This document shows, piece after piece, positions 54,539 to 58,489 of a DNA stretch of 64,000 bases (positions are counted from its first letter, which is position 1; each line of letters starts with the position of its first letter). Source of the stretch: Nocardioidaceae bacterium (lineage in GTDB: Bacteria; Actinomycetota; Actinomycetes; Propionibacteriales; Nocardioidaceae). A model generated the notes under the pieces. It was not told where the DNA came from. It did no database searches and worked only from the letters and a program-made list of their open reading frames with translations. The stretch is from the NCBI GenBank assembly GCA_017744365.1, contig JAGIBL010000002.1, forward strand, positions 310,001 through 374,000, written 5' to 3'. Position numbers and translations under genes: made by a program.

Positions 54539-54581
54539 CTGAACACCCGGACGGTCTCCAGTGTTCCTCGCGGGTGTTCAG
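54539..54581. terminator. Hairpin at the end of the sortase gene
   Basis: CTGAACACCCG (54539-54549) is exactly complementary to CGGGTGTTCAG (54571-54581), with a 21-nt loop. It overlaps the sortase stop codon on the minus strand and closes the sortase transcript before moeZ. Confidence 0.7.
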
Positions 54582-56326
54582 CCGGTGCCGCCCGGTCCGC
54601 CATCTGGGACCTGGGTGTCCTGCGTCACTGGCGTCGCCGGCGCCCCGCGGAAGGGCTCGTCGGCCACCGGTACGGCGTACACGACCGCGTTCGAGCGGTA
54701 CTCCGTGCCGTCCCAGTCGTCGCAGGTGATGAGCACCAGCCGCCCGTCGCCGCCCTGGCGGAAGATGTCCTCGGAGTTCTTGGCCAGCCCGGCCACCGAG
54801 TAGATCCGCGAACGTCGTACGACGTAGGTGATCCAGCCCGTGGCGGTGCGCACCCGCAGCCGGTCGCCGGGGACCAGCTCGGCCAGGTGGTCGAAGGCGC
54901 CGCCGCCGGTGTGCACGGTGTGACCGGTGACCACGGCCGACCCGGCCACCTCGCCGGCGCCGCGGCCCTCCTGCCACCAGCCGAGCACCTGCGGGTCGTC
55001 CGGCGGGGTCAGCTCGCCGCTCTGGCCGCTGATCGGGATGACGTCGGACTTCACGTGCAGCCGCGGTACGTCGACCTGCAGCGGCCGTCCCGCCGAGGCC
55101 AGCGCGACGCCGGCGTACGGGCCGGAGGCCTGCTTGACGCTCACCGGCCCGATGAAGCCCTGCGCGGGCTCGACCTTGGGGTCCTCGATCTGCTGGCCGC
55201 CGACCGCCTTGTCGGGGACCGAGCCGGCCAGCCAGTCCGCGATGCCGGGCGCGACCCAGGGAGCCGCGGCGGCGCCGCCCAGGAGGACCACGAAGAGGAC
55301 ACCCACCACGGCCCGGCGGTGACGACCGGTGGGCTTGGCACGCCGGCGCCGCGGCAGCTTCGGCGCGGGGACGTGCGCGAGCCAGTCGTCCGGCAGCGTG
55401 TCCTCGGGCTCGTCGGGCGGGTCGAGCACCTCGGCGTGCTGGTCGGCGGGGACGCCGGTGAGCTCGAGCGCCGCGACGTCGGCCTCGGTCTGCACCGCGG
55501 CGATCTCGTCGGAGGCGGCCGCGAGGGCGCGCATCTCCCGGGCACTGCGGCGCTTGCCCTTGCGGCGCGTCCTCGCCCTCGGCTCTTCCGGTACGGCGGC
55601 GGCAGGCTCGTCAGCAAACAGGTCGTCGAGGTGGAGCGGCTCGGGCACGTCGGCAGCACCTTGCGGGGTTGCCTTCGCGGCCTTCGCCGCAGCCTTCTCC
55701 CGGCGGCGCTCGGCGCGGCGTTCGCCGCGGGGGGGCTCGGCGAGCGGCACGGCGGCGAGCTGCTCGTTCGCGGAGGACGCGGCCATCAGGTCCTGCACGT
55801 CGCGCAGGAAGAACTCCGAGACGTCCGGGGGTCGCACCACCTCGGCCTGATCGGCCACGGCGACCTCGACCTGAGCCACCTGAGGCTCCTGCTCCGGCTC
55901 TGGCTCCGGCTCCGGCTCTGGCTCCGGCTCTGGCTCCGGCTCCGGCTCTGGGCGCAGGTACTGCTCCGGGATCACCCGCGGCAGCGGGTCGAACTCCACC
56001 GGGGTGGCGAAGATCTGCGCGGCGATGGGCAGCGGCGGCGGCTCGGGCATCTCGACGGGCTCGACGGGCTCCGGCGCGGGCGGCTCCACCTCGACGACCC
56101 GCTGCTCCGGGATCATCGTCACGGGCTCAGGCTCGGGCGCAGCCGGCTCCGGCACGGGAGGACGGGGCGCGGGCGGTGGTGGCGCCGTCTGCGCAGCCCT
56201 CGCACGCTCCTCCTGCTTGCGGAGCAGCGCGGTCGCGCCGACGACGAGAAGGCCGAGAGCGGCGGTGCGGAGCCTTCGCCGCCCGCCGCCCTCAGCACTG
56301 GTGCGTTCAGCTCTGTCTCGTGCCAC
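54578..56326 (-). CDS. Sortase (class E/F-like) with a long Pro/Glu-rich N-terminal region
   Basis: 582 residues, GTG start overlapping the substrate-A gene by 20 bp. The catalytic domain (about residues 385-565) has His in T-G-H-T-V-H-T-G (near 469), Cys in L-I-T-C-D-D-W (near 535) and Arg in Y-R-S-N-A (near 544). A TM segment lies near 339-357 after a basic R-R-R-R-A-K cluster, so the domain is outside. Before it come roughly 300 residues rich in Pro, Glu, Ala and Lys, including P-E-P-E repeats, an unusual length for a sortase; a short hydrophobic stretch near the start may be a second TM. It would join the two adjacent VVHAGL proteins to peptidoglycan or pili. Confidence 0.88.
   Translation of the reverse strand: MARDRAERTSAEGGGRRRLRTAALGLLVVGATALLRKQEERARAAQTAPPPPAPRPPVPEPAAPEPEPVTMIPEQRVVEVEPPAPEPVEPVEMPEPPPLPIAAQIFATPVEFDPLPRVIPEQYLRPEPEPEPEPEPEPEPEPEPEQEPQVAQVEVAVADQAEVVRPPDVSEFFLRDVQDLMAASSANEQLAAVPLAEPPRGERRAERRREKAAAKAAKATPQGAADVPEPLHLDDLFADEPAAAVPEEPRARTRRKGKRRSAREMRALAAASDEIAAVQTEADVAALELTGVPADQHAEVLDPPDEPEDTLPDDWLAHVPAPKLPRRRRAKPTGRHRRAVVGVLFVVLLGGAAAAPWVAPGIADWLAGSVPDKAVGGQQIEDPKVEPAQGFIGPVSVKQASGPYAGVALASAGRPLQVDVPRLHVKSDVIPISGQSGELTPPDDPQVLGWWQEGRGAGEVAGSAVVTGHTVHTGGGAFDHLAELVPGDRLRVRTATGWITYVVRRSRIYSVAGLAKNSEDIFRQGGDGRLVLITCDDWDGTEYRSNAVVYAVPVADEPFRGAPATPVTQDTQVPDGGPGGTG
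55891..55950 (-). repeat. Hexanucleotide tract, two identical 30-bp halves
   Basis: Ten GCTCCG/GCTCTG hexamers; bases 55891-55920 and 55921-55950 are identical. They encode (Pro-Glu)n in the sortase linker (residues about 126-145). Because the unit is six bases, slippage would change linker length without shifting frame. Confidence 0.9.
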
Positions 56327-57140
56327 CGCGCGGTCGTACCGTTCCGAGACCAGCGGCGATGACCATCAGGATCATCCCGGCAACCAACAGGGTCAGGCCC
56401 TCCTGCGAGGTGTCACGAGCCCCGGCCAGACCGGCGTGCACCACGGTGGGCGACTCGGCGGGCGGGGTCACGACCTCGGCTTCGGGCGGGTTCACCTCGG
56501 GGGGCTCCACGACCGGAGGGCTCACCACCGGCGGCGGGACCACGCTGCAGTTCGTCTCCGCGGCGTTGAAGGTGTGCGTGAACACCTGCGTGGTGCCGCC
56601 TCCCTCGAAGGTGAAGTTCTCGTCGGCCGTCGCGGTGACCTCGATGGACGCGCCGGGCGCGGCGCTGCCGTCGGTGACCGCGAACGAGACGTGCTCACCG
56701 GTGGTGTCGAACGAGGCCGTGTTCTCGTTGGCGCAGGTCGGCTCGTCGAAGTCGACGTCGGCGACCGCCTCCGCCACCGTCACCTCACCGTTGCAGGTCG
56801 CCTCGGTGACGTTGCCGTCCAGCCCCTGGATCAGGTCGGGCTTGGCCTGGCCGGCCGTGTGCGCGACCCCGTTGAAGGTGCCGTCCGACTTCCACTTCTT
56901 GTTGGGCGAGTTCCGGTGCGCCAGGTGCGCCTCGAACTTCGCGGAGTCGTCGTCGACGGTGATGAACACGTACGGGTTCGTGTCCGAGCTCGTCGCATGA
57001 CAGATGTTCACCGGCGTCTTCGCCGCACTGGCCGGGCTCGCGGCCACCATGACCGCCACCCCGCTCGACATGACCAGCATCCCGACGGCAGCGAGAGCGA
57101 CTGCCACTCTGCGCGCCGTCAGCTTGTTCTTGATTCCCAT
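56307..57140 (-). CDS. Predicted sortase substrate A (VVHAGL surface protein)
   Basis: 277 residues from ATG 57140. Signal peptide with L-V-M-S-S-G and A-S-A cleavage near residue 38. A beta domain with A-D-V-D-F-D-E-P-T-C-A-N-E-N, H-V-S-F-A-V-T-D-G-S, and E-V-T-A-T-A-D-E-N-F-T-F-E-G-G repeats that of substrate B. A Pro-rich spacer leads to T-V-V-H-A-G-L-A, a short linker, a TM segment (L-L-V-A-G-M-I-L-M-V) and a basic tail. The layout is that of a sortase anchor with V-V-H-A-G-L in place of L-P-x-T-G. It overlaps the sortase gene. Confidence 0.8.
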   Translation of the reverse strand: MGIKNKLTARRVAVALAAVGMLVMSSGVAVMVAASPASAAKTPVNICHATSSDTNPYVFITVDDDSAKFEAHLAHRNSPNKKWKSDGTFNGVAHTAGQAKPDLIQGLDGNVTEATCNGEVTVAEAVADVDFDEPTCANENTASFDTTGEHVSFAVTDGSAAPGASIEVTATADENFTFEGGGTTQVFTHTFNAAETNCSVVPPPVVSPPVVEPPEVNPPEAEVVTPPAESPTVVHAGLAGARDTSQEGLTLLVAGMILMVIAAGLGTVRPRGGTRQS

Positions 57141-57361
57141 CTCAGCCCCCACGTGGCTCGAGCACTCAATGTGGAAGGCAGCCCCCGAGCGGTGCCCAGA
57201 CAGGGCCTCTCGACGCGGTCGGGAGGTCCCGCATGTCCGGGTCCCGCACGGTGTCCCGGATGATCCATCAATACCCCCAACGTGCCCGCCGACAAGCAGG
57301 TCACGAGGGTGGTCTAGTCAGGTTCGCCGGGACGGCTCGGCCGCCCTCCTCCCCCGAGGGA

Positions 57362-57400
57362 CCGAGGGCGGTGACGGAGTCGCTCCGTCACCGCCCTCGG
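57362..57400. terminator. Perfect 18-bp stem terminator between the two surface-protein genes
   Basis: CCGAGGGCGGTGACGGAG (57362-57379) and its exact complement (57383-57400) enclose a 3-nt loop. It lies 18 bp past the stop of substrate B (57419), so B is transcribed apart from A and the sortase, or read-through is limited. Confidence 0.92.
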
Positions 57401-57418
57401 CATCGCTCCTCGGAAGGA

Positions 57419-58489
57419 TCAGCTCTCGCTGCGGCGGCCGGTGAACCCGACACCGCCGGCGACGACCATCAGGATCATCCCGCCCACCAGCAGGGCCAGG
57501 CCCTGCTGACCGCGCAGGTCCGGCTTCACCTCGGCGAGGCCGGCGTGCACCACCTGCGGCGTGGCGACGACCTCGTCCGGGGTCTCCGTCTCGCTGCCCG
57601 GGACCACGGTCGGCGGCTCGACGATCGTGCAGCCGGTGACCTCGGCGAAGGTGTGCTCCCAGTGGGTCTTCGCACCCTCGGCCAGCTCGCTCGGCGCGAT
57701 CGCGGTCGCGTCGACCTGGACGGTCTCGCCCGGGCCCACGGTGCCGGTGATCTCGTAGTGGACGCCGTCGACGTCCTTGCCGAGAGCCGCGCGCTCGTTC
57801 TCGACCGGCGCCGCCTCCGGCAGCACCACGGCCGCCTCGGTGTCGCAGGTCGGGTCGATGAAGTTCACGTCACCGGGGGTGACCCGGGTCGGCGGGTTCA
57901 CGATCACGCACGGCGGGCCCTCGAGGTCGACCTCCGGGTCGAAGGTGTGCGTGAAGACCTTGGTGGTCGAGCCGCCCTCGAAGACGAAGCCCTCGTCGGT
58001 GGTCGCGGTGACCTCGATCGACTTGCCCGGCTCCAGGCTGCCGTCGGTGACCTTGAAGGAGACGTGGTCGCCGGTGCCGGACCAGTCCACGTCGTTCTCG
58101 TTGGCGCAGGTCGGGTCGGTGAAGGTGACGTCCGCGGTGGTGACGTCCGGGTTCTGCGGCTTCGGGCACTCGCTGACCGACGGCTCCGGCTGGCCGGTGT
58201 CCTCGGCGATGACGTAGGAGCGGCCGTGCGCGTCGTTGAAGAACGACCCGATCACGACAGGGTCCTCGCCGATGGCGTTGCCCGACACGCTGATCGGGTT
58301 GTTGCCGGTCTGCAGGCGCTCGTCGACGCCCGGCGTACCGACGTACTTGCAGACGAAGTACTTCGGCGCGGGCGCGGCGTTGGCCGAGCCGGCGGTGAGC
58401 ATCAGAGCGATGCCGCTGGACATGACGAGCGTCGCCAGGGCGGCCAGCAGCGCGGCCGCACGACGACGCATGACGTTCTTGGTTCCCAT
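57419..58489 (-). CDS. Predicted sortase substrate B (VVHAGL surface protein)
   Basis: 356 residues from ATG 58489. Signal peptide (L-V-M-S-S-G-I-A-L-M-L) ending near A-N-A at residue 38. Two related beta domains follow: one is the A-D-V-T-F-T-D-P-T-C-A-N-E-N domain of substrate A, the second a diverged copy starting P-G-D-V-N-F-I-D-P-T-C. The end is Q-V-V-H-A-G-L-A, 11 residues, TM (L-L-V-G-G-M-I-L-M-V), basic tail. It is a longer paralogue of A and probably a co-substrate of the same sortase. Confidence 0.8.
   Translation of the reverse strand: MGTKNVMRRRAAALLAALATLVMSSGIALMLTAGSANAAPAPKYFVCKYVGTPGVDERLQTGNNPISVSGNAIGEDPVVIGSFFNDAHGRSYVIAEDTGQPEPSVSECPKPQNPDVTTADVTFTDPTCANENDVDWSGTGDHVSFKVTDGSLEPGKSIEVTATTDEGFVFEGGSTTKVFTHTFDPEVDLEGPPCVIVNPPTRVTPGDVNFIDPTCDTEAAVVLPEAAPVENERAALGKDVDGVHYEITGTVGPGETVQVDATAIAPSELAEGAKTHWEHTFAEVTGCTIVEPPTVVPGSETETPDEVVATPQVVHAGLAEVKPDLRGQQGLALLVGGMILMVVAGGVGFTGRRSES

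Follow-up and report, generated by a model that had tools for sequence, protein, structure and literature searches.

A class-F-type sortase of a Nocardioidaceae bacterium encoded beside two putative substrates with a sorting signal other than LPXTG

Genes and features of the locus

A stretch of 64,000 nucleotides from a Nocardioidaceae bacterium, a soil actinobacterium (assembly GCA_017744365.1, contig JAGIBL010000002.1, positions 310,001 to 374,000), the whole of which is called the window here, contains the gene for a class-F-type sortase together with the genes for two secreted paralogues, named substrates A and B as the putative targets of the enzyme (Table 1). An earlier note, made from the sequence alone, had described a sortase gene overlapping the gene of one surface protein with a paralogue upstream, and all three genes were found as placed, with 20 nucleotides common to the substrate A gene and the start of the sortase gene. 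A perfect 18-bp hairpin may be a terminator and, because it separates B from A, may make substrate B a transcription unit of its own.

Table 1. Positions of the genes and predicted features in the window
Feature	Position	Strand	Description or basis
Class-F-type sortase gene	54578..56326	minus	starts with GTG, 582 aa; a long N-terminal region rich in Pro and Glu, then one clear transmembrane helix, with the catalytic domain at the C-terminus
Substrate A gene	56307..57140	minus	secreted protein with a CHATSSDTNPY module, a single ADVxFxxPTCANEN beta domain and a sorting signal at the C-terminus
Substrate B gene	57419..58489	minus	paralogue of substrate A, also secreted, with a CKYVGTPG module, two beta domains as judged by sequence and a sorting signal at the C-terminus
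Sorting motif of substrate A, PTVVHAGL	56427..56450	minus	sequence comparison, DNA pattern
C-terminal hydrophobic helix of substrate A, then Arg-rich tail	56343..56396	minus	sequence
Sorting motif of substrate B, PQVVHAGL	57536..57559	minus	tail-profile match at window 57422-57562
C-terminal hydrophobic helix of substrate B, then basic tail	57443..57499	minus	sequence
Predicted catalytic His469 of sortase	54920..54922	minus	His in 110/110 class-F-type rows
Predicted catalytic Cys535 (LITC) of sortase	54722..54724	minus	Cys in 110/110 class-F-type rows
Asn546 of sortase, place of catalytic Arg in other sortases	54689..54691	minus	Asn in 109/110 class-F-type rows
Main transmembrane helix of sortase, Arg-rich stretch before it	55253..55312	minus	AVVGVLFVVLLGGAAAAPWV; sequence
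18-bp perfect hairpin separating the two substrate genes	57362..57400		possible terminator

Substrates A and B are 48% identical and share the blocks LVMSSG, ADVxFxxPTCANEN, HVSFxVTDGS, VVHAGLA and LLVxGMILMV, as had been pointed out before. Both end in P-x-V-V-H-A-G-L-A, a transmembrane helix and a basic tail; the spacer between VVHAGLA and LLV amounts to 11 and 13 residues in the two proteins, so that of the 11-12 residues given earlier only the lower value stands. With an N-terminal export signal (recognized by sequence), the motif, the C-terminal helix and the basic tail (recognized by sequence and a hydropathy scan), both proteins have the layout of a cell-wall sorting signal, and none of LPxTG, LAxTG and NPQTN occurs in the tail of either, in agreement with the earlier note. 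Pfam gave nothing firm for the substrates, the best match being Flg_new_2 (E 0.0074, below its cut-off), and no Pfam or NCBIfam anchor model matched them at E ≤ 1. In particular, the NCBIfam model NF058571 (GVDTG_CTERM; cut-off 29 bits) matched neither P0002 nor P0003 at E ≤ 1, nor P0003 at E ≤ 10, and the positions of the window substrates were not among the matches listed in a scan of the genus with this model. Folding of substrate B without an alignment gave a predicted local distance difference test score (pLDDT) of 41, and the model was not used.

Family, fold and active site of the sortase

The PF04203 sortase domain was found at residues 419-554 of the window sortase (E 5e-18; 65.5 bits versus a gathering score of 26.6). 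The best class model was NCBIfam class F (NF033748) with an E value of 8.4e-18, followed by sortase_fam (8.6e-7) and class E (1.2e-6); the score of 64.5 bits lies below the curated NF033748 cut-off of 166, as does that of another sortase of the same genome (83 bits). Ten sortase matches were obtained in the source genome, class C and class E among them. Membership of the window enzyme in class E was rejected, as the class E model is far weaker than that of class F, and also from its placement in the tree (see below). The catalytic domain as modelled by AlphaFold (pLDDT 74.6; alignment of 24 sequences) matched solved sortases with a probability of 1.00 and template modelling scores of about 0.5-0.6 among the best 50 of 401 matches. 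A solved-structure search with the single sortase sequence gave no match; a profile search did give matches, and no chain named class F was among those listed. Together, these sequence comparisons support a sortase of a distinct group, which is class-F-type and not a wholly new class.

Ahead of the main transmembrane helix there are about 338 residues; the earlier note had rightly seen a long Pro/Glu-rich region there and had put it at about 300. Besides this helix, there is a shorter hydrophobic segment between Arg residues near the N-terminus (about residues 22-35; window 56222-56263), with which the long Pro/Glu-rich linker could have more than one topology. The same short, Arg-flanked stretch recurs in the orthologues L048, L049, L051, L052 and L053.

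In an alignment of 110 class-F-type rows, the columns of His469 and Cys535 are invariant. Where the last strand begins and other sortases carry the catalytic Arg, the window sortase has Asn546, and the same column contains Asn in 109 rows and Ser in one (L052). The class C and class E sortases of the source genome carry Arg in this column. When aligned by hmmsearch to the solved chain 5go6, a class E enzyme, the Asn is paired with Arg, and an hhalign comparison of 18 class-F-type with 10 class E rows pairs Asn546 with an Arg found in every row of the class E alignment. Because Asn is common to the class-F-type group examined, it is no distinguishing feature of the window enzyme. Two remote relatives from the same genome carry Arg (L044) and Asn (L042), respectively, in this column. 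An Arg on the strand ahead of the Cys, at -6 or -4, is present in 100 of the 110 rows. A literature search for Asn replacing the sortase Arg found nothing, and subscription journals could still hold such a report. If confirmed, the replacement bears on the statement, made in PMC13257024, that all sortases share a His-Cys-Arg triad.

Sortase and signal within the genus

Some sortase match was found in 21 of 24 genus genomes and a close orthologue of the window sortase (E ≤ 1.3e-64) in nine (G000, G005, G006, G007, G012, G016, G017, G019 and G020); named relatives are mostly Nocardioides, and also Marmoricola, Pimelobacter and Kribbella. One to three neighbours per close orthologue carry [TSA]P[TQ][VL]V[HE][AS]GL, followed by a spacer, in many cases DLRGEQGL, and then by a helix and basic residues at the terminus; this corresponds to a lineage signal P-T-[VL]-V-[HE]-[AS]-G-L, in which substrate B has Q for T. 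At the anchor place no LPXTG was found in the tails of the orthologues, the finding that had been named earlier as able to undo the proposal being a different conserved motif at that place. A tail profile (A2) made from 12 tails of these neighbours gave 13 matches at E ≤ 1.6e-9, all in the nine genomes and all at most about 5.4 kb from the close sortase; twelve of these tails had themselves gone into the profile, and the new information is the 13th match, a distal match and the absence in the other genomes. The 15 genomes without a close orthologue gave no A2 match at E ≤ 1e-3 (best E 0.004), and tails without the sortase, the other outcome that had been said to speak against the pairing, were thus not encountered there. 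A degenerate DNA pattern for PT-x-VHAGL, which excludes substrate B (PQVVHAGL) and Glu variants, gave 10 matches in seven of the 24 genomes, each with a close orthologue and each match near it, while the reversed control pattern gave 0 in all 24, so that the recurrence exceeds what chance would give.

The next A2 match (E 5.9e-4) is a distal protein of the source genome in which TPTRVHAGLAG is carried by a Pro/Lys-rich chain that does not resemble the other substrates, so VVHAGL-like endings are not confined to exactly two neighbours, as had been believed. This third signal-bearing protein (G000:C7:970900-975200; L230 1971-2756, minus strand) lies far from the sortase. In addition to this protein, two proteins of G007 carry the PTxVHAG block on differing mature parts; the mature parts differ while the tail recurs, and therefore it is the signal, not the protein, that is conserved. 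The moeZ/TetR surroundings are kept in three of the nine loci (window, G006 and G007) and were not found in the six other stretches (6.5 to 12 kb), so sortase and tail stay together despite changing surroundings.

Elsewhere in the source genome, a class C sortase locus (L039; G000:C11:78000-89000) contains LPFTG and LPDTG proteins, and therefore canonical signals coexist with class-F-type signals in one genome.

A proposed wider class F signal

Upstream neighbours of other class-F-type sortases of the genus end in LPTAVSAG, PTVVDSG, VPTAVEAG and the like, and tags such as PRGSVKTGVGG, PVDGVEAGFGG and PTGGVETGGGS, among others, were found beside such enzymes across the phylum. In this wider set, the H of VVHAGL is replaced by E, D, S, N, P or T, the A by S or T, and the first V by L, A, S, R and others. 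A motif restricted to VVHAGL, as first put forward, was rejected, given the variation in orthologues and in the distal protein; as judged from these alignments, the putative class F signal is P-x(2,3)-V-x-[TAS]-G, with the PTVVHAGL type as the form of one lineage.

We took a census of 109 class-F-type sortases in 107 loci from which duplicates had been removed. A same-strand upstream open reading frame (ORF) with a transmembrane helix and basic tail lies within 3.6 kb of 97 sortases. For 92, the upstream partner fits P-x(2,3)-[VAPIML]-x-[TAS]-G followed by helix and basic tail (79 with Val), and for 88 a fitting partner is found within 1.6 kb. By source, the fits amount to 45/60 in the phylum draw, 27/29 in the genus and 20/20 in the named records, among which a single partner was counted for two sortases of L177. 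Counted by tails, 94/118 fit (79 with Val) versus 2/76 control tails (0/76 with Val); the controls come from 864 kb of further sequence in genomes of the same types. A loose canonical pattern was found in 8/118 census tails versus 11/76 control tails, and the matches inspected lie mostly in or near the helix. Among the 17 sortases without a fit, five (L101, L131, L148, L149 and L152) show visible variants or a motif without a transmembrane helix, L130 has PRGAADTGVA in an ORF removed by the coding filter, L114 is at a contig start, and ten show no motif, several of them with a flank of only 1.5 kb. In L148 and L149 (genome G106), the proteins upstream of the class F sortases stop right after the motif (PRGGAATGGGG and PRGGAQTGGGG), with no transmembrane helix in the same frame.

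Because the census rule postdated our viewing of most of its loci, fresh loci were tested with the same rule. Twelve of 23 fresh class-wide class F loci fit (eight with Val); L241 and L245 of this set had only 80 and 536 bases upstream. Fresh loci of the family fit in 14 of 17 cases, a set in which L285 repeats L164 and L299 had 5 bases upstream. For the fresh locus L262, the position used was wrong by 728 bases, and no tail lay within reach. A neighbour of this kind is thus missing close by from many class F genes. At class E loci the rule fitted 0/30, only two of which have any upstream ORF with a transmembrane tail, and therefore this control shows an absence of such neighbours and not differing tails.

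Tail-to-sortase search, phylogeny and partner proteins

The search was also made in the opposite direction with a profile (A3) of 18 Streptomyces-type tails in seven genomes of the Streptomyces type, six of them sources of its rows, with 150 of 357-500 first-look candidates scored per genome. It gave 44 matches at E < 1e-5 that covered the motif, 36 of which have a class F sortase no more than 2 kb away, where about 0.3% would be expected by chance; conversely, an A3 tail was found within 2 kb of 31 of the 42 class F sortases in these genomes. The eight distal matches comprise six proteins resembling class-F-type tails elsewhere and two LAETG proteins, which were rejected as false matches for class F. 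Two loci with a class F sortase of the Streptomyces type and its customary partner also contain, nearby on the opposite strand, a second secreted protein that ends in GGV[RQ]GGLGGSS, a transmembrane helix and a basic tail (L120 4833-5513, plus; L231 2173-3240, minus).

In a tree of 114 rows, with only two outgroup rows, long branches and output without a shuffled control, the window sortase is found in a nine-row clade (Shimodaira-Hasegawa-like approximate likelihood ratio test, SH-aLRT, 99), all partners of which carry TPT[VL]V[HE][AS]GL. The 48 rows from Nocardioidaceae and Kribbella also group together (SH-aLRT 100), and the 47 motif-bearing rows among them have Pro at -6. In this tree the window sortase sits inside the class-F-type rows and apart from its genome's own class C and E rows. 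Over the tree, the place of the Pro (-6 or -7) changes twice and the residue before the Gly 14 times. Motif variants therefore follow the sortase clades, as far as these aligned sequences indicate.

We examined 61 partner proteins, all picked for fitting the motif, and its Gly is their only invariant column, partly by this selection. Pfam recognized DUF4397 in nine, ice-binding-like domains in six, and DUF4331, AMIN-like and CHRD domains singly. The NCBIfam model NF058571, 'GVDTG sorting domain', matched 17 of the 61 at E ≤ 0.01; the two scores inspected, 26.4 and 19.6 bits, are below its cut-off. NCBI curators have therefore seen part of the signal, and a signal unknown to curators was rejected. 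Literature mentions of 'GVDTG' concern other matters, and a search for a printed class F motif found nothing, though subscription journals could still hold one. Regarding the sortase class of its own with an undescribed motif proposed in the earlier note, a distinct group with non-LPxTG neighbours holds up; a wholly new class does not, since class F is the best model and NF058571 covers a related signal.

Interpretation and alternatives

We interpret the locus as very probably a cell-wall anchoring cassette consisting of a Nocardioidaceae class-F-type sortase and two dedicated substrates. Observed directly are the pairing of the genes, the conservation of the motif on differing mature domains and its co-occurrence with the sortase. 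From the sequences we infer contact between enzyme and substrate, cleavage between A and G and anchoring to the wall: substrates A and B would be exported by the N-terminal signal and retained in the membrane through their C-terminal helices, and the sortase would cut between Ala and Gly of T-P-T-V-V-H-A-G-L, in the register of the cut between T and G of LPXTG, and join the substrate Ala to a peptidoglycan precursor. Read in this register, Val would occupy the place of Pro (Ala in LAXTG), with Ala, Ser or Thr before the cut and Gly after it; the class F signal has an additional Pro 3-4 residues further out than the motif Val. For class F as a whole, we see even chances that it has its own chemistry (His-Cys-Asn, not His-Cys-Arg) and its own code P-x(2,3)-V-x-[TAS]-G, often with one dedicated substrate beside each enzyme and with lineage dialects such as PTVVHAGL. 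If true, this code would explain why LPXTG-like searches gave no role for class F.

Several points weigh against the anchoring cassette and the wider code. Since the window enzyme lacks the triad Arg, sortase activity cannot be assumed. A class F sortase tested experimentally, that of Cutibacterium acnes, is reported to take LPXTG (PMC13257024 and PMC7451113). No such partner lies within about 1.5 kb upstream at 11 of the 23 fresh class F loci, 11 of the 42 sortases of the seven genomes lack a tail match within 2 kb, and signal tails occur away from any sortase. Shared descent of an operon would yield the same pattern of tree and motif. The late date of the census rule, the weak class E control and a doubtful positive, L123, with its LARTG-like tail, also count here.

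Among the alternatives, the best survivor, still unlikely, is an enzyme that cuts the signal and then releases or cross-links the proteins, as a protease or polymerase, without joining them to peptidoglycan. This would suit the altered active site and the many class F sortases with one or few adjacent partners, an arrangement that recalls pilus sortases, but the cassette contains no second sortase and the fold is that of sortases in general. Somewhat less probable still is the processing of both substrates by another sortase of the genome, of class E or C, beside a neighbour that has lost canonical activity. The ten sortase matches and Asn in place of Arg would permit it; yet the class C locus has LPFTG and LPDTG proteins of its own, and His and Cys are kept in 110/110 rows, unlike decay, to which the class E control adds little. 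Least probable of all are plain membrane anchors with PTxVHAG kept through paralogy and a sortase acting on other proteins, for although the window pair are paralogues and cleavage of the tails is a prediction, the same block recurs in G007 on mature parts that differ from each other and also on the distal protein, no strong tail match exists where the close sortase is absent, and related blocks stand beside class F sortases phylum-wide on DUF4397, ice-binding-like, DUF4331 and other proteins.

Comparison with known systems

The tails of the window proteins share the order of motif, helix and basic tail with the LPXTG cell-wall sorting signal, presumably of the PF00746 type, but they lack LPXTG. 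The same layout is found in NF058571 (GVDTG_CTERM), a model that gave no match to the window substrates at E ≤ 1, whose lineage has P-T-x-V-x-[AS]-G-L. As described in PMC5148588, SrtE1 of Streptomyces coelicolor, of class E, recognizes LAXTG signals without the Pro of LPXTG and with Thr before the cut, and has an N-terminal extension before its transmembrane segment. The window system resembles it in being actinobacterial, in a signal without that Pro and in the N-terminal extension, and differs in its class model, in the Arg that class E keeps, in the Thr before the cut and in tails without LAXTG.

The physiological roles of class F sortases are called unknown in the text available from PMC13251363, where joint deletion of four of them in Actinoplanes missouriensis gave no phenotype; substrates were sought there, as far as that text goes, only with LPXTG, NPXTG, SPXTG, PPXTG, LPXTA and LAXTG. 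Our sequence comparisons suggest that related enzymes in Actinomycetota often stand beside related tags, which hints at the substrates of a class that has been little studied; the signal derived from neighbours gives this class concrete candidate substrates, a testable peptide and possibly an orthogonal ligation tag. The window enzyme is like the class F sortases (NF033748; SrtF of C. acnes, Streptomyces and Actinoplanes) in its best model, in the Asn at the place of the Arg and, as far as a tree with long branches and two outgroup rows can show, in its position among class-F-type rows, and it stands apart from them by its 64.5 bits versus the cut-off of 166, by the long branch to the Nocardioidaceae clade and by the long region before its transmembrane helix.

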